A model generated the notes under the pieces. That model worked only from the letters and a program-made list of their open reading frames with translations, ran no database searches and had not been told where the DNA came from. Source: an uncultured Thermodesulfobacterium sp. (GTDB lineage Bacteria > Desulfobacterota > Thermodesulfobacteria > Thermodesulfobacteriales > Thermodesulfobacteriaceae). Taken from it: a stretch of DNA of 64,000 nucleotides. The stretch spans positions 62,001 to 126,000 of the forward strand of contig CALLJG010000005.1 of assembly GCA_938091335.1 (NCBI GenBank). The letters are read 5' to 3'. A program made the translations under genes and the position numbers. The first letter of the stretch is position 1, and every line of letters starts with the position of its first letter. Shown piece after piece: positions 1,834 through 10,245 of the stretch.

Positions 1834-3303
1834 TTATTTACCTATCCAATAGTTTGGTGCTTCTTTTAAAATAGTAACATCATGCACGTGACTTTCTCTA
1901 TATCCTGCATGTGTAATTTTAATAAATTTAGCTTTTTTTCTCAGTTCTTCAATATTCTTACACCCACAATATCCCATCCCAGACTTGAGCCCTCCTATAA
2001 GCTGGTAAATCATATTTGAAACAGGACCCCTATAAGGAACCCTTCCTTCTACACCTTCAGGTACAAATTTAGATAGATCTTCTGCCTCTTGTCTATACCT
2101 TTCCCTGGCTCCACTTTTAAACATAGCAGAAAGAGAACCCATTCCTCTATATATTTTGTAAGTCCTACCTTCATAAAGAATTGTTTCTCCTGGAGCCTCT
2201 TCAGTACCTGCAAAAAGATTACCTATCATTACTGCATGAGCCCCTGCTCCTATAGCTTTAGTAATATCTCCAGAAAATCTTATTCCTCCATCTGCAATAA
2301 CAGAAACTCCATATTTATCTGCAACTATTGCACAATTATGTATTGCAGTAAGTTGGGGAACACCAGCTCCAGCAATTATTCTTGTGGTACATATTGAACC
2401 AGGACCAATCCCCACTTTTATACCATCAGCTCCTGCTTTAATCAATGCTTCTGCTCCTTCAGGAGTGCCCACATTTCCAGCAATTAATTGACACTCAGGA
2501 AAATGATACTTTATCTCTATGATTGTATCTATCACATTTTTTGTATATCCATGAGCAGAATCAATAAAAAGAACATCACATCCTGCTTTCAAAAGAGCTT
2601 CAGCTTGCTCTAATCTATTTCTACCTACCCCAATAGCTGCACCTACTCTTAATCTTCCAAGCTCATCTTTACAAGCATTAGGATATTTTTTAATTTTTTC
2701 AATATCTTTAATAGTAATAAGTCCTTTTAAACAAAAATTATCATCTACAATTAACAACTTTTCTATTCTATTAGCATGTAAAATTTTAACTGCTTCATCT
2801 AAGGTTATACCAGGTTTAGCAGTAATTAAATTTTCTCTAGTCATTACTTCTTTAACAGGTCTTTCAAAATGGGTTTCAAACCTTAAGTCACGATTTGTAA
2901 CAATCCCAACTAATTTTTTTTCATGGCCCTCAACTACAGGAATTCCTGATATTTTAAATTCTTCCATTAACTTAAAAACTTCTCTTATAGGAGTATCTGG
3001 AGTTACTACTATTGGATCATAAATCATTCCACTTTCAGACTTTTTAACTTTTTCCACTTCTTTTACCTGCTCTTCTAAACTCATATTTCTATGAATTACA
3101 CCAAGACCACCCTCCCTTGCAATACTTATAGCCATTCTACTCTCAGTAACAGTATCCATAGCAGCTGAAAGTAAAGGAATATTAAGTTTGATCTTAGGCG
3201 TTATATAAGTTGATACATCTACATCTTTTGGCAAAACTTCAGAATAGGAAGGAACAAGCAATAAATCATCAAAAGTATAAGCTTCATATAAAATTTCAAG
3301 CAT
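1834..3303 (-). CDS. guaB: Inosine-5'-monophosphate dehydrogenase
   Basis: 489 residues, standard length. It oxidises IMP to XMP with NAD+, the committed step of guanine nucleotide synthesis. The start ([12 protein letters not shown]) is the normal IMPDH N-terminus. A pair of CBS domains is inserted at about residues 95-205 ([27 protein letters not shown]). The catalytic loop [11 protein letters not shown], with the nucleophilic cysteine near residue 305, is intact, followed by [10 protein letters not shown] and the flap YRGMGS. It lies in the minus run between the HU-Ppx/GppA fusion and pilC. Having a Ppx/GppA-type phosphatase next to guaB is notable because both touch guanine nucleotide pools, but a functional link is only inferred. 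Confidence 0.97.
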
Positions 3304-3352: not shown

Positions 3353-4552
3353 CTAATAATTATAATCCTCAATTAAAGAAAGTAAAGTTCCCTCTAAAAT
3401 TCCATATTCGTTAAGGATTGCACTTTCTTTATTGAAGTGATCAAAAATGACTGAATAAATAAGTAAACCTCCTAATATAATATCTTCTCTTCCCTTTTCC
3501 ATACCTCTTATTTTTTGAAGTCTTTCATAATCAAAATTAGCAAGTTTTTTTATTAGTCTTTCTAATCCTTCTTTATTAATTCTAAGCCCATGAAGTGTTT
3601 CTAAATTATAATAAGTTAATTGAAGCTCAAGCCTACCCAATAAACTAGCTGTTCCTCCTGTAATTATTAACTCTTGGAAATTCACTAAAGGTAAAGTACT
3701 TATTTTTTCTTTTATGTAATCTTTTAATGATTTTATTAATTTCAAATTTAAAGGATGCCTTAAATCAAATATTTCCTTCAAAGTAACTACTCCTAAATCT
3801 ATACTTTTAATCCATTCCTTTTTTCCGTTATTAAAATAGATAAATTCAGAAGAAGCCCCCCCAACATCTATTGTAATAAAGTTTTCAATTTTTAGATCAA
3901 AATCTTTTAAACCAAAAAGAATCCCTTTAAGTGAAAGCTCTGCTTCCTCTTCAGGAGAAATTATTTCAATCTCAATCCCTAAATTTTTTTTAACAAAATC
4001 TACAAATTCTTTTGCATTTTCAGCTTTTCTAAAAACCTCTGTTCCAACAGCTTTATATTTTAAAATTTCATATTTAGTAAGTTCTTCTTTAAATTTTTTT
4101 AAAGTTTCTATACCTCTTTGAAAGGCTTGAGAAGAAATTTTTCTCTGACTACCTAATCCTTCACCTAACCTTACATTTTCTTTCCATTTGGCTAAAAAAT
4201 AAACATTTCCATTAAAATTTTTCCCCAAACAAAGTCTGAAACTCTGAGTACCTAAATCAAGAGAGGCTAAAAAGGGAGTATTTAATCTTTTTTTAAACTC
4301 CTTACCTATTTTGAATAAAATTCTACTTTTACTTTTTATATAATATTTTCTATTATTTCTTGGATTTTTAAAAATTATACCCTTAGTTTTTTTTGGAATA
4401 AAAACCCCAAAATCTCTTAACTCGATTCTATTACCTTTTCTTATCTCTTCTTTTAGTATATCAAAAAAAAGATTCATTATAAATTGAAGATCTCCTTTTT
4501 CTATTTCAGGAAATTTATAATTTAATTTTTCAACTAGGTCTTTTTGAGTCAC
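3353..4552 (-). CDS. HU/IHF-type DNA-binding domain fused to Ppx/GppA phosphatase
   Basis: 399 residues with two clear parts. Residues 1-91 read as a complete HU/IHF protomer: N-terminal helices (TQKDLVEKLNYKF, DLQFIMNLFFDILKEEI), then GNRIELRDFGVF and the DNA-binding arm with KNPRNNRKYYIKSK ending in FKIGKEFKKRL. Residues 94-399 are a Ppx/GppA exopolyphosphatase/guanosine pentaphosphatase of the ASKHA fold: SLDLGTQSFRL (phosphate 1), EVFRKAENAKEF, ITIDVGGASSEFIYF (phosphate 2) and a C-terminal GREDIILGGLLI helix. The family hydrolyses polyphosphate or pppGpp. The start is a GTG without a clear Shine-Dalgarno, 12 bases after the upstream sppA reading ends downstream of it. The fusion is unusual; tethering the phosphatase to the nucleoid is inference. 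The domain calls are strong. Confidence 0.88.
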   Translation of the reverse strand: MTQKDLVEKLNYKFPEIEKGDLQFIMNLFFDILKEEIRKGNRIELRDFGVFIPKKTKGIIFKNPRNNRKYYIKSKSRILFKIGKEFKKRLNTPFLASLDLGTQSFRLCLGKNFNGNVYFLAKWKENVRLGEGLGSQRKISSQAFQRGIETLKKFKEELTKYEILKYKAVGTEVFRKAENAKEFVDFVKKNLGIEIEIISPEEEAELSLKGILFGLKDFDLKIENFITIDVGGASSEFIYFNNGKKEWIKSIDLGVVTLKEIFDLRHPLNLKLIKSLKDYIKEKISTLPLVNFQELIITGGTASLLGRLELQLTYYNLETLHGLRINKEGLERLIKKLANFDYERLQKIRGMEKGREDIILGGLLIYSVIFDHFNKESAILNEYGILEGTLLSLIEDYNY

Positions 4553-4564
4553 TTTATAATTAGA

Positions 4565-5437
4565 TTAGAAACTCACTATATATAAAGGTTTTAAGAAAAA
4601 TTCTTCCAAAATAAGAGAAGTTTTTTCTTCTAAAAATTTAGATATAATTCCCTTTTTCTTAGGTAAAAACACAAGTTTAGCCTCTGGAATCCTTGCCAAT
4701 TTTTTTGCTTCTTCTACAGCATCCCAAAAGTTACCAACACTATCTATTAGACCAAGAGAAAGAGCTTCATCTCCAGTAAAAATTCTACCATCTGCCAAAT
4801 TTCTTATTTTTTCTATAGGTATCTTTCTTTCTTCTGAAATAGCCTTTATAAATTGATCATGAATAATTTTAACTTTTTCTGTAAGATATTTTTTTTCTTC
4901 TGAAGTAAGAGGTCTATAAATAGAACCAGTATCTTTATACGCTCCGCTTTTAATAGTTTCTGTTTCTACTCCCAGTTTTTCTAAAAGTTTTTCTATATTA
5001 GGAATTTCTAAGACCACACCTATACTTCCTGTGATTGTCCCTGGAGAAGCAAAAATTTTACTTCCACCTAAAGCTATGTAAAATCCGCCTGAAGCAGCTA
5101 CATTCCCCATGGAAACTACTACAGGTTTTATTTTTTTAGTCTTTTTAAGCTCTTCAAATATTTCTTGAGATGCTCCTACTGATCCCCCAGGAGAGTCAAT
5201 TCTTACTACTATAGCTTTAATGCTATTTTTTTGGTTCATTTCTTTAATGGCTATTAAATAATCTTGAGCATCAAAAATAACTCCTTTAATCTGTAAAATT
5301 CCTATTTGAGGCTTACCGAAGTCCCTTTCTTTAAAAATCATCAAAAAGGATAAAACAAAACTTATGAAAATAAAAATTAATACTAATCCTCCAATAAAAG
5401 CTAATCCATAAATAAGCCAAGGTCTTTTCATACTCAT
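4565..5437 (-). CDS. sppA: Signal peptide peptidase SppA (short, 36K type)
   Basis: 290 residues, matching the short single-domain SppA class rather than the 67K E. coli form. One N-terminal membrane helix (about residues 8-34) anchors a periplasmic serine protease of the ClpP/crotonase fold. The core motif RIDSPGGSVGAS is present, the nucleophile is Ser116 in NVAASGGFYIA, and the general base is Lys168 in SGAYKDTGSIYRPL, so the Ser-Lys dyad is complete. It degrades leftover signal peptides in the membrane. Two in-frame ATG codons lie at the start (5437 and 5431) and neither has a strong Shine-Dalgarno. It sits between cca and the HU-Ppx gene in the packed minus-strand run. Confidence 0.93.
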   Translation of the reverse strand: MSMKRPWLIYGLAFIGGLVLIFIFISFVLSFLMIFKERDFGKPQIGILQIKGVIFDAQDYLIAIKEMNQKNSIKAIVVRIDSPGGSVGASQEIFEELKKTKKIKPVVVSMGNVAASGGFYIALGGSKIFASPGTITGSIGVVLEIPNIEKLLEKLGVETETIKSGAYKDTGSIYRPLTSEEKKYLTEKVKIIHDQFIKAISEERKIPIEKIRNLADGRIFTGDEALSLGLIDSVGNFWDAVEEAKKLARIPEAKLVFLPKKKGIISKFLEEKTSLILEEFFLKPLYIVSF

Positions 5438-5464: not shown

Positions 5465-6757
5465 CTATTTATTCAAGATCAATTTTTTAACAAATTTTTC
5501 TTCATCTTCTTTAGTTTTTATTTTACCTTCTATTATCTTTTCTCTCAACAGCTCTAAAACTCTTCCTATTTCTTTTCCTTCTTTTATCCCAAATTTTTTT
5601 AAGTCTTCTCCTGTAAGTTGAGGTTTCATTTTCTTGAGTGTTTTTAAAAACTCAATCACTTCTCCTTTCAAAAAAGGATAAGAAACAGCTAAAACTAAAA
5701 GATAGAAAGGTTTGATTTTTTCAAAAATTTTTACTTTTTCTATCAACTTTAAATTATTCCAAAAATTTAATTTCATTTTTATAATTTCAAGAGCTTTTTT
5801 CATTCTTTTTATATCAAATTCATTAAATCCAAGCTTGTAAGCATCATCCAAAACTTCCAAATCAATAAGGCCTAAAAGAAAAGCCTTTTCTATTTCTATA
5901 GAATTTATATGATCTTTTAAGACCTTTATAATCTCTATAAGGGAGTCAAAATTTTCTTTTTTTACTTTAATTCCTAATTTTTCAAAGATATTTAACTCAA
6001 AAGTGGTTTGCAGAAGTGATTTTAAATTTTTTTCTGGTTCTTTTATCAAATATAATTTTAATTCATTTGATATTCTTGATGGAGAAAGTTTCTTAAAAGA
6101 AGATTTTTCAGAACCTATTTTTAAAGCCAAAAAAAATTCTTTAGAAAAATCAAAATCAAATCTTATTTTATATCGAATCCCTCTAAAAACTCTTGTTGGG
6201 TCATCTATAAAAGAATTTAAATAAAGTGGTCTGATAATCCCTTTTTTAAGATCTTCAATCCCATTTACTAAATCAATTAAATAACTTTCATAAGGAGAAG
6301 AAAGTCCTACTATAAGAGCATTGATACTAAAGTCTCTTCTAAATATATCATCCTTAAAATTAGAGGGAAAAACTTTAGGAAGTTTGGCTATCTCCTCATA
6401 TAATTCTTTTCTTGCAGTTATAAAATCTACTAAAAATTCTTTTGTGTTAAGACTAATTTTTACCTTATATGTCAAAAATTGAGACCTTAAAATTATTTTA
6501 CCTTTTATTTTTTTAAAAAGTTCTTTTAAAAATTCGGTAAGATCCCCTTCTAATACCAAATCAAGATCTTTAAAAGATGGAATTTCCCTTTTATACCATT
6601 TTTTAATAAAATAATCTCTCACTATCCCACCTGCAAAATACAAAAACTCTTTTCTTTTTTGGGAAATTTCTTGTAAAAGAAAAATAAATTTTTGAATCTC
6701 TGGATCTGGTAATAGGATATCTAAAAATTCTTTTAAATCTATTTTAGTAATTTGCAT
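5465..6757 (-). CDS. cca: CCA tRNA nucleotidyltransferase / poly(A) polymerase family (class II)
   Basis: 430 residues from the chosen ATG. A longer frame reaches 6865, but that would run deep into xerC; the ATG at 6757 lies 13 bases after the xerC stop and gives the family's normal N-terminus. The nucleotidyltransferase core has GGIVRD (43-48), the metal-binding DLD (64-66), RRDFSINAL (140-148) and DPTRVFRGIRY, all class II signatures. The C-terminus (GEDLKKFGIKEGKEIG) matches the tail of bacterial tRNA nucleotidyltransferases. It adds CCA to tRNA 3' ends. This matters here because tRNA-Val and tRNA-Ser in this window lack an encoded CCA. A split A-adding or CC-adding specificity cannot be excluded. 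Confidence 0.87.
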   Translation of the reverse strand: MQITKIDLKEFLDILLPDPEIQKFIFLLQEISQKRKEFLYFAGGIVRDYFIKKWYKREIPSFKDLDLVLEGDLTEFLKELFKKIKGKIILRSQFLTYKVKISLNTKEFLVDFITARKELYEEIAKLPKVFPSNFKDDIFRRDFSINALIVGLSSPYESYLIDLVNGIEDLKKGIIRPLYLNSFIDDPTRVFRGIRYKIRFDFDFSKEFFLALKIGSEKSSFKKLSPSRISNELKLYLIKEPEKNLKSLLQTTFELNIFEKLGIKVKKENFDSLIEIIKVLKDHINSIEIEKAFLLGLIDLEVLDDAYKLGFNEFDIKRMKKALEIIKMKLNFWNNLKLIEKVKIFEKIKPFYLLVLAVSYPFLKGEVIEFLKTLKKMKPQLTGEDLKKFGIKEGKEIGRVLELLREKIIEGKIKTKEDEEKFVKKLILNK

Positions 6758-6770
6758 TCCAAGATAAAAT

Positions 6771-7649
6771 TTAGGCTCTTGGATGGTATTTTTCGTATAC
6801 CTCTTTAAGTCTTTTATAATCAAGATGGGTATAGATTTGAGTTGTAGAAAGACTTGCATGACCAAGCATCATTTGTAAAGCTCTTAAATCAGCTCCACCT
6901 TGTAATAAATGTGTGGCAAAAGAGTGTCTTATTACATGGGGTGAAACTTTTTCTTTAAGATCACATTTTTCCGCATATTGTTTTATTATTTGCCAAAATC
7001 TTTGTCTTGTTAATGGAGCTCCTCTTTTATTTAAAAAAACAAAATTTTTACTTTTTTGATTAAGAAATTTTGGACGTACCTCTTTTAAGTAGATTTTCAA
7101 AAAATTTAATGCATAATCTCCTATAGGAATAAGTCTTTCTTTAGCTCCTTTTCCCAAAACTCTTACTAAACCAAGTTCTAAATTAATATTATCTAATTTT
7201 AAATTAACTAATTCAGAAACCCTTAAACCTGTAGCATAAAGAAGCTCAAACATAGTTCTGTCTCTATATCCAAGAAGTGTATTTAAATTACAAGCATTTA
7301 AAAGTTTTTCAATTTCTTCTAAACTTAATACTTTAGGCAATCTAAAGGGAAGTTTAGGAGTTTCAAGAAACAAAAAAGGACTTTCTTTTAAACCTTTTTC
7401 TATTTCCAAAAATTTAAAAAAACTTCTTAAACTTGAAATCTTTCTAGCTATACTAAAAGGACTGTACTTCTTTTTTAAATATTCTAAATAATTTATTATT
7501 TTTTTAGAAAAATCTCCTTTATCAAAACTTTCTTTTTCATAAAATTTCACAAAATCTTTTAGATCAGAATAATAAGCCACAATAGTAAGGTAAGAATAAT
7601 TTTTTACCCCTGCAAGATAAGTCAAAAATTCTTCTACTAACTTTTTCAT
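6771..7649 (-). CDS. xerC: Tyrosine recombinase XerC/XerD-like
   Basis: 292 residues, the usual XerC/D size. An N-terminal SAM-like core-binding domain (about 1-85) is followed by a catalytic domain with every active-site residue visible: Arg143 (GLRVSEL), Lys167 (LGKGAKER), His238 and Arg241 (HVIRHSF), His264 (LGHASL) and Tyr273 (IYTHLD). It resolves chromosome dimers at dif, together with a partner in some species. The start codon overlaps the ferritin stop by four bases (ATGA), giving translational coupling. Nothing around it looks like an integron or a phage, so the housekeeping role is favoured. XerC versus a single XerH/XerA-type enzyme cannot be settled from sequence alone. Confidence 0.9.
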   Translation of the reverse strand: MKKLVEEFLTYLAGVKNYSYLTIVAYYSDLKDFVKFYEKESFDKGDFSKKIINYLEYLKKKYSPFSIARKISSLRSFFKFLEIEKGLKESPFLFLETPKLPFRLPKVLSLEEIEKLLNACNLNTLLGYRDRTMFELLYATGLRVSELVNLKLDNINLELGLVRVLGKGAKERLIPIGDYALNFLKIYLKEVRPKFLNQKSKNFVFLNKRGAPLTRQRFWQIIKQYAEKCDLKEKVSPHVIRHSFATHLLQGGADLRALQMMLGHASLSTTQIYTHLDYKRLKEVYEKYHPRA

Positions 7650-8170: not shown

Positions 8171-8677
8171 TTATCCTCCTTTTATAAGATTTAGTTCCTT
8201 TAAAATTTTTTCCACTTTAAACCCTATTATTTCATCTTTAGAAATTAAAGCAAGAGTTTTTAATTTAGAAAGAATGCTTTGTTTTTCTGAAAAATTTCTA
8301 TTAGGAAAATCGGTTTTTAATTTTTCTAAAGAAGAAAGAACAAGGTTTCTATCATCAACATCCAGAAATAAAAGAAGAGTTCTCCAGTCTTCAGGAATTC
8401 CATACTTTTTAACAAATTCTTTTACTAATTTCTTAAAATTTTTAGTTCCATAACTTTTATGAATATTTTCTATAAAGGCTTGCTTTTCAAGTTCTTCTTT
8501 ATTTACAAAAAGTTTTTCTATTTCTTTTATATATTTTTCCTTAGTTTTGTTATTTTCTTTATATACCTTTTTTTCAGATTTTTCCAATTTTTTTCTTATT
8601 TTAGCAAACCCACTTTGATCTTTTAATTTGTCTATTTCTCTCCAAGAAAGCTTTTTTCTTTCATCATCTTTACTCAT
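8171..8677 (-). CDS. Conserved hypothetical protein, lysine-rich helical
   Basis: 168 residues from the ATG at 8677, chosen because GAGGAG lies seven bases upstream; a start five codons earlier has no such site. The N-terminus (LSWREIDKLKDQSGF) recalls a widespread delta-proteobacterial-type unknown family; this is memory, not a search. The protein is highly charged and predicted helical with no signal peptide, membrane segment or cysteine cluster. The C-terminal half has a compact region (YGIPEDWRTLLLFLDVDDRNLV). Its start overlaps the phosphatase stop by eight bases and its end contains the ferritin Shine-Dalgarno, so the three are coupled. No function is proposed. Confidence 0.7.
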   Translation of the reverse strand: MSKDDERKKLSWREIDKLKDQSGFAKIRKKLEKSEKKVYKENNKTKEKYIKEIEKLFVNKEELEKQAFIENIHKSYGTKNFKKLVKEFVKKYGIPEDWRTLLLFLDVDDRNLVLSSLEKLKTDFPNRNFSEKQSILSKLKTLALISKDEIIGFKVEKILKELNLIKGG

Positions 8678-9347
8678 AGTATCTCTCCTCACATTCTATT
8701 TGGTAAATCTCTTTATAAGGTAATTCAATAGCAGTAAGAGCTCCACCGTATACACAGCCTGTATCAATTCCTATCCTATCTTTTAAAATAAGAGGAATAG
8801 AAAATGGGGTATGCCCAAACACTATAGTTTTAGGAAATGCATAATTAGAGTAGTAAAAACTCTCTCTTATCCATAATAAATCTTCTTCTTGTTGATCTTC
8901 CAAATCTTTACCAGGTCTTAAACCTGCATGAACAAAAATATAATGCTCTGTTTCATAATAAAGTCTAAGCTCTTTTAAAAATTTTAAATGCTCTGGAGGA
9001 ATTTCCAGATAACCACTTTTGTTATAGTAACTTCTAAGAGTGGAACCACCTCCATTATATAAAAATATGTCCACATCTATTCCTTTTAAAAATCTTTCAA
9101 ACATCCATTCATGATTTCCTTTAAGGGTAATTATTTTATCTCCATAAAGCTTTTTAAGCCCTATTATCTTTTCAATAACCCCCTTTGAGTCTGGACCTCT
9201 ATCAATATAATCTCCAAGAAAAATTACCAAATCTTGTCCCCATTTTACAGGAAGAATTTTTAAAAGCTTTTCTAATGCCTCCAAACACCCATGAATATCT
9301 CCTATAGCAAAAATTTTATTATATCCAGAAACGTGCTCTTCTGTCAT
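8670..9347 (-). CDS. Serine/threonine-type metallophosphoesterase (PrpE/Ap4A-hydrolase-like)
   Basis: About 225 residues. All calcineurin-like metal-binding blocks are present in order: GDIHGCLEA, FLGDYIDRGPDS, LKGNHEWMF, VHAGLRPG and FGHTPF. This places it in the PPP family of bacterial phosphatases, near bacteriophage lambda phosphatase, PrpE and diadenosine tetraphosphatases. The substrate could be phosphoprotein or a dinucleoside polyphosphate. The start is ambiguous: ATG at 9347 (chosen) or 9365, both inside the end of the radical SAM gene and both without a clear Shine-Dalgarno. It overlaps the downstream unknown gene by eight bases. Confidence 0.85.
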   Translation of the reverse strand: MTEEHVSGYNKIFAIGDIHGCLEALEKLLKILPVKWGQDLVIFLGDYIDRGPDSKGVIEKIIGLKKLYGDKIITLKGNHEWMFERFLKGIDVDIFLYNGGGSTLRSYYNKSGYLEIPPEHLKFLKELRLYYETEHYIFVHAGLRPGKDLEDQQEEDLLWIRESFYYSNYAFPKTIVFGHTPFSIPLILKDRIGIDTGCVYGGALTAIELPYKEIYQIECEERYYE

Positions 9348-10245
9348 CAAGTCTTGTAAGACCATATTTATAAGCTAATTTAAGAGCTTTTTCCCATTCT
9401 TCTTTAGTAATTTTTCTATCAAGTGGAGGATATTTCCAGGCTTCTCCACAAGGCCTATATTGATCCATAAGATTAAAATAAGTATGAGGAGATATTTCCT
9501 CAGATATAAATTTAATCACTTCCTCTGTTTGAGAAAGATCCCCTGGTAAAATTAAATGTCTAACAATTAAACCCCTTTTAGCAATTCCATTTTCTATTAT
9601 CAAATCTCCTACCTGTCGATGCATTTCTTTTAAAGCAGCTTTAACTACCTTAGAGTAATTTTTTATTTTAGAAAGTCTTAAAGCTACTTGATCATCCATG
9701 TACTTTATATCTGGCATATAAATATCTATTATTCCATCAAGAAGTTCAAGGGTTTCTACAGATTCATATCCTCCACAATTATAAACAATTGGCAAAGTAA
9801 GACCCTTTTCAGCAGCCATCTTTATTGCTTTTACTATGAAGGGAACTTGATGGGTAGGGGTAACAAGATTAATATTATGACAACCCCATATTTGTAAAAT
9901 AAGCATAATTTTTGCTAAATCCTCTTCATCAATTATATCACCTTCTCCCAAATGACTAATTTCCCAATTTTGACAATATACACAAGACAAATTACAATAA
10001 GTAAAAAAAATAGCTCCAGAACCATTTTTTCCTACTAAAGGTCTTTCTTCCCCAAAATGAGGTCCATAGCTTGAAACAATAGGTTTGTTTCCTACTTTAC
10101 ATATTCCCTTCTCCCCATTTAGACGATTAACTTTACACTTATTAGGACAAAGATCACATGAAGAAAGTTTTTCATATAAAATAGATATTCTCTTATCAAG
10201 TTCCCCTGATTTAAACAAATTTAAATAAGAAGGATATTCTTTCAT
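9319..10245 (-). CDS. Radical SAM protein, PflX/pyruvate-formate-lyase-activase-like
   Basis: 308 residues from the ATG at 10245, which overlaps the preceding stop codon as ATGA; a longer frame would run further into the upstream gene. Cys84-x3-Cys88-x2-Cys91 (YCNLSCVYCQNW) is the radical SAM [4Fe-4S] motif. An N-terminal cluster of four cysteines (Cys30, 33, 37 and 49, CDLCPNKC and GICKVG) is characteristic of the PflX-like group and may bind a second cluster or zinc. The family uses S-adenosylmethionine to form a 5'-deoxyadenosyl radical; the partner of this subgroup is generally unknown. No glycyl radical enzyme is in the window, so a true PFL-activase role is unlikely here. Confidence 0.85.
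   Translation of the reverse strand: MKEYPSYLNLFKSGELDKRISILYEKLSSCDLCPNKCKVNRLNGEKGICKVGNKPIVSSYGPHFGEERPLVGKNGSGAIFFTYCNLSCVYCQNWEISHLGEGDIIDEEDLAKIMLILQIWGCHNINLVTPTHQVPFIVKAIKMAAEKGLTLPIVYNCGGYESVETLELLDGIIDIYMPDIKYMDDQVALRLSKIKNYSKVVKAALKEMHRQVGDLIIENGIAKRGLIVRHLILPGDLSQTEEVIKFISEEISPHTYFNLMDQYRPCGEAWKYPPLDRKITKEEWEKALKLAYKYGLTRLDDRRARFWI

Follow-up and report, generated by a model that had tools for sequence, protein, structure and literature searches.

The window, i.e. the entire stretch of 64,000 nucleotides analyzed here, carries a gene whose product joins an HU/IHF DNA-binding domain to a phosphatase domain of the Ppx/GppA family (Table 1). HU and IHF are normally small free proteins. 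The gene is read in a single uninterrupted frame without internal stop. The original prediction, made from the letters of the window, placed both domains intact in one chain and named the motifs RIELRDFGVF and NPRN; this description holds. Both motifs are present in the protein, the Pfam profiles of the two domains (PF00216 and PF02541) are matched above their cut-offs, the key residues are invariant, and the AlphaFold2 model of the full chain reaches a mean pLDDT of 93.0 and a pTM of 0.81. This model was computed from 19 alignment rows; an earlier run on three rows (pLDDT 49.8) was discarded. Some other open reading frames nearby deserve mention. As judged by eye, a XerC/D-like tyrosine recombinase frame at 6771-7649(-) overlaps the start of a CCA-adding-enzyme-like frame at 5465-6865(-) by about 95 bases, and for the latter frame the assigned TTG start possibly lies too far upstream. 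An ApaH/PrpE-like calcineurin-type phosphatase at 8670-9365(-), likewise recognized by eye, is a possible second hydrolase of nucleotide signals.

Table 1. Features of the fusion locus; positions are those of the window, residues those of the fusion protein.
Feature	Position	Strand	Basis or remark
HU-Ppx fusion gene	3353..4552	-	399 aa, GTG start; start aligns with the Met of nearly all relatives
HU/IHF domain, residues 1-91, IHF-beta-like by best NCBIfam match	4280..4552	-	Pfam, NCBIfam, PDB sequence matches, alignment, AlphaFold
HU beta-ribbon arm, residues 50-78, net charge +10; invariant F61, N63, P64, R77	4319..4405	-	alignment, charge count, AlphaFold
Arm-tip Asn63-Pro64, invariant in aligned fusions	4361..4366	-	alignment
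Linker, 3 residues (92-94), HU helix 3 to Ppx strand 1	4271..4279	-	alignment, AlphaFold model
Ppx/GppA domain, two-lobe short form, residues 95-399	3356..4270	-	Pfam, NCBIfam, PDB sequence and fold matches
Arg175, equivalent to catalytic Arg84 of M. tuberculosis PPX1	4028..4030	-	invariant; same R-28-E spacing (PMC3411833)
Glu203, equivalent to catalytic Glu112 of M. tuberculosis PPX1	3944..3946	-	invariant (PMC3411833)
Asp229, equivalent to metal ligand Asp135 of M. tuberculosis PPX1	3866..3868	-	invariant (PMC3411833)
Glu236, equivalent to metal ligand Glu142 of M. tuberculosis PPX1	3845..3847	-	invariant (PMC3411833)
sppA, upstream neighbor, 12-bp gap, conserved	4565..5437	-	profile matches, gene-order comparison
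guaB, downstream neighbor, 49-bp gap, conserved	1834..3303	-	profile matches, gene-order comparison

The first part of the protein matches PF00216 over residues 1-91 (E 2.2e-17; 63.5 bits vs. a cut-off of 22.4) and covers the profile completely, i.e. positions 1-90 of 90. The best HU-type match in NCBIfam is IHF-beta, and the corresponding equivalog cut-offs (NF001222/TIGR00988) are missed with 52.6 vs. 115 and 44.9 vs. 120 bits; according to these profiles, the HU part is IHF-beta-like, not IHF-beta proper. Sequence matches in the PDB are Hbb, IHF-beta and HU, with E values from 6e-6 to 6e-4. The HU fold expected for residues 1-91 also appears in the AlphaFold model, which predicts the element order of HU/IHF (two helices, a sheet with the arm, and a C-terminal helix): helices at 3-13, 19-38 and 84-91, and strands at 43-45, 49-56, 59-62, 69-72 and 75-82, with pLDDT values of 84-95 by blocks. 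The list from the structure-based fold search contains Ppx/NTPDase matches only, since the larger domain fills it; the absence of HU matches there is thus no argument against an HU fold.

In HU and IHF, the proline at the tip of the arm intercalates into DNA. N63-P64, R46, F48-G49, F61, R77, F80 and G83 are retained without exception among 21 aligned fusions; the usual G-R ahead of the NP is missing from the arm. The net charge of the HU domain ranges from +3 to +15 across the fusions, similar to that of free HUs. For close fused pairs, dN/dS amounts to about 0.02-0.12 in the HU domain vs. 0.07-0.30 in the Ppx domain, with the HU value being lower in most pairs and several dS values lying near saturation. 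These ratios indicate strong purifying selection on the HU domain, and the intact DNA-contacting features suggest that it dimerizes and binds or bends DNA. On other contigs, the genome of the window contains three more HU-like stretches (L005, L006 and L007); at the arm tip of L005, NLRN stands in place of NP, which makes the usual kinking of DNA by this stretch improbable. Given these further stretches, the fusion would not be needed for the bulk HU function, and heterodimers are possible.

The second part matches PF02541 over residues 115-394 (E 2.6e-55; 188 bits vs. a cut-off of 27). The NCBIfam model exo_poly_only (TIGR03706) spans residues 95-394 with 218 bits, i.e. below its cut-off of 307. 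The best sequence match in the PDB is the Ppx/GppA protein of Aquifex (E 2.5e-33), and residues 91-399 of the AlphaFold model superimpose on solved Ppx/GppA structures with Z values of about 29-40. In PPX1 of M. tuberculosis, Arg84 and Glu112 are catalytic and Asp135 and Glu142 bind the metal (PMC3411833). The equivalent residues R175, E203, D229 and E236 are invariant in 21 of the 21 aligned fusions, and the R-E (28) and D-E (7) spacings match those of PPX1. Both domains thus look functional, with DNA binding and catalysis being predicted and a coupling of the two being conceivable. At position 233 (3854-3856), the phosphate loop of the window protein (DVGGASSE) has an alanine in place of the third glycine of the DxGGGS motif, where all other aligned fusions possess glycine (DVGGGS); this could be a sequencing variant or a natural one. 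A change from N to Q in the GTQ phosphate loop was considered as a mark of the fusion and rejected, because the unfused homologs L014 and L025 carry the same change.

A search for the same architecture in Thermodesulfobacteria and relatives, as suggested with the original prediction, recovered the fusion in 39 out of 41 genomes of the order, distributed over three families, at 38-72% identity. Based on two named relatives, Caldimicrobium sp. SKYB6 and a Guaymas Thermodesulfobacteriota MAG, this order is presumably the Thermodesulfobacteriales. Thirty-six of the fused copies are full length and uninterrupted; one runs into the end of its contig (G217), one is truncated (G205), and one is frameshifted in its Ppx part (G225). 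The frameshift of the latter (L103, G225:C136, about 2691-2700) marks either a pseudogene or a sequencing error. In the two remaining genomes (G219 and G214), neither a fusion nor a full-length guaB was found. The locus is therefore probably absent from these drafts, and a loss of the fusion in these genomes was rejected as an explanation. No fused frame occurs among the matches listed for the roughly 230 genomes sampled from the phylum outside the order, and no fused relative was found on viral contigs. Ninety-four plasmid records match, the best-listed of which match the Ppx part only. According to the PF02541 search, the fused gene is the main and usually the only Ppx/GppA gene of a genome, and the sole one in the genome of the window; a few genomes (G209, G213, G223 and G231) contain another copy or an additional match that is weak and partial.

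This distribution also settles whether a frameshift, an assembly error or a wrong start has merged two separate genes, an objection that was already foreseen with the original prediction. We found no point in favor of such an artefact, and its probability is practically negligible: the frame is unbroken, and the identical junction recurs independently in 39 genomes, several of which consist of a single contig (G028, G065, G100, G128, G198, G204 and G226). The junction is constant across the fusions, with HU helix 3 ending near residue 91 and the Ppx part opening with its first strand at residue 95. HU-Ppx is one protein with a two-domain architecture. A separate Ppx protein made from an internal translation start was rejected as well: in the window gene, ATG, GTG and TTG are absent from the frame between codons 27 and 108, which leaves a free Ppx beginning near residue 94 without any standard start codon.

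The gene order sppA-[HU-Ppx]-guaB is found at every fused locus where the contig reaches far enough. Homologs outside the order are separate genes that in some genomes are still neighbors, and these arrangements reveal the origin of the fusion. One family (f40; L016, L020, L022 and L023) has sppA-HU-ppx, where HU and ppx are about 20-35 bp apart. A second family (f19; L015, L017-L019 and L021) has sppA-HU-[opposite-strand ORF]-ppx-guaB, the intervening frame being yrdC/Sua5-like as judged solely by its translation. Elsewhere in the phylum, many genomes have ppx adjoining guaB and HU adjoining sppA at another place. The simplest history is that neighboring genes of an ancestral cluster were joined: an HU/IHF-beta-like gene and an adjacent ppx gene of an old sppA-HU-ppx-guaB cluster would have fused a single time, no later than in the common ancestor of the order. 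The ancestral cluster and the descent from it are evident from the comparison of gene orders; a single event is presumed. In the tree of the HU domain (91 columns), the fused HUs group with the sppA-linked HUs of G066 and G029 and are not recovered as one clade; two sppA-linked free HUs are placed among them with modest support. The single origin rests therefore on the shared junction and the gene order.

The adjacency to guaB, to which the original prediction had given functional weight, is real and conserved. Judged by the gene orders of the phylum, it predates the fusion and is not a consequence of it: unfused ppx genes adjoin guaB as well, so the adjacency is no evidence for the role of the fusion and, if anything, points to an old ppx-guaB link. 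ppGpp inhibits GuaB, and the pairing may matter in this respect.

The original prediction had named polyP or pppGpp as the substrate, and the gene content of the order bears on both. PPK1 was found in none of the 41 genomes, while control genomes gave matches, and PPK2 reaches its cut-off in none of them either; RelA/SpoT is present in 39 of the 41. Ppx/GppA is near-universal in this order without PPK1 and without a PPK2 match over the cut-off. This profile renders pppGpp the likelier substrate. A role in polyP metabolism would call for a different supply of polyP, which is possible, and is otherwise unlikely. We consider it quite improbable that the fusion acts as a nucleoid-bound exopolyphosphatase on polyP: the missing kinases speak against this role, although the top NCBIfam match is exo_poly_only, albeit below its cut-off, and although in Pseudomonas the histone H1-like protein AlgP links polyP granules to the nucleoid (PMC9239181). 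Hence, pppGpp appears to be the best candidate, and a link of the fusion to alarmone metabolism is plausible. The assignment stays provisional, because members of the Ppx/GppA family can lack the activities in the family name: Rv0496 and Rv1026 of M. tuberculosis do not hydrolyze pppGpp, and Rv1026 does not hydrolyze polyP either (PMC3411833).

We tentatively favor a model in which HU-Ppx is a single bifunctional enzyme held on the nucleoid, formed once, that turns pppGpp into ppGpp. The HU part, with its intact DNA-contacting features, would dimerize and keep the enzyme attached to chromosomal DNA that is bent or distorted. The Ppx part would strip the terminal phosphate from pppGpp on the nucleoid, as suggested by its intact active site, the presence of RelA/SpoT and the lack of polyphosphate kinases. 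The dimer would most likely consist of two HU domains on DNA and two Ppx parts, and the stoichiometries of HU dimers and Ppx/GppA dimers appear to match. With a linker of three residues and little freedom between the domains, binding of DNA and binding of substrate may affect each other. From the sequences, a chromosome-tethered phosphatase seems the most natural reading. We count against the nucleoid-pppGpp model the alanine in place of the third glycine of DxGGGS, the arm without G-R before NP, and the three other HU-like stretches in the genome. A further reading, which we regard as less likely than not, makes the protein a clade-defining nucleoid alarmone phosphatase: the turnover of (p)ppGpp on DNA would directly govern DNA bending or be governed by it, so that one protein would connect the stringent response with chromosome architecture.

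HU is an obligate dimer, and the host organisms are thermophilic. The HU part could thus serve only as a module for dimerization and heat stability of a short Ppx/GppA, with DNA binding being physiologically irrelevant. In agreement with this, the Ppx part is a short two-lobe form without domains III-IV, with which the E. coli enzymes end at the C-terminus, and the E. coli Ppx dimer is thought to be made by domain III (PMC7552824). On the other hand, two-lobe Ppx/GppA homologs of M. tuberculosis dimerize without HU (PMC3411833). The invariant NP at the arm tip and the cationic arm would moreover be superfluous in a pure dimer module, and we judge this explanation unlikely. Ppx/GppA proteins have an actin-like (ASKHA) fold whose lobes close on their ligand. 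The fusion might accordingly be a ligand-controlled nucleoid protein, in which the Ppx lobes mainly sense (p)ppGpp or nucleotides and alter the binding of HU to DNA, while hydrolysis resets the switch. Ligand-driven lobe closure, the linker of only three residues and relatives solved with ppGpp bound (6pc1) speak for such a switch; all catalytic residues are retained, hence the protein is no dead sensor, and we hold this alternative to be rather unlikely.

Under the enzyme model that we favor, the main Ppx/GppA of the order probably sits on the chromosome and could tie stress signaling to chromosome structure. Evolution has fixed the main, and usually only, Ppx/GppA to HU across a whole order of thermophiles, with both parts apparently under strong selection, and a single purified protein suffices to test directly whether alarmone turnover is linked to the structure of the chromosome. 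Furthermore, the order lacks polyphosphate kinases and thereby offers a Ppx/GppA family for which a role in polyP metabolism can probably be set aside.

We found no description of an HU-Ppx/GppA architecture in open-licence papers, which is weak evidence for its novelty. Both families are already known; what appears to be new is their combination, fixed across an order. HU fusions as such have a precedent in HU-HIG (PF18291), where the partner of HU is a wHTH, Ig or Gly-rich part. This profile weakly matches residues 3-92 of the fusion, below its cut-off, but the partner in HU-HIG is not an enzyme and the HU subfamily is a different one. The histone H1-like AlgP of Pseudomonas aeruginosa resembles the polyP reading in being DNA-associated and connected to polyphosphate granules, but is not homologous, contains no enzyme and acts on granule spacing (PMC9239181). 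Residues 1-91 match IHF-beta, HU and Hbb (8flj_F, 1b8z, 2np2) over their full length and share the NP at the arm tip; these are free proteins of 90-100 aa, whereas the HU of the fusion precedes an enzyme and its arm lacks the G-R before NP. The PPX/GppA of Helicobacter pylori (6pc0-6pc3), solved in nucleotide- and ppGpp-bound form, is about 30% identical to the Ppx part (Z 35); unlike the fusion, it has additional C-terminal domains and no HU domain. The short two-lobe Ppx/GppA of Aquifex aeolicus (1t6c, 1t6d, 2j4r) has the same catalytic fold, length and catalytic residues, with 25-26% identity over about 300 residues and Z values of 32-35, and differs from the fusion in being without an HU domain.
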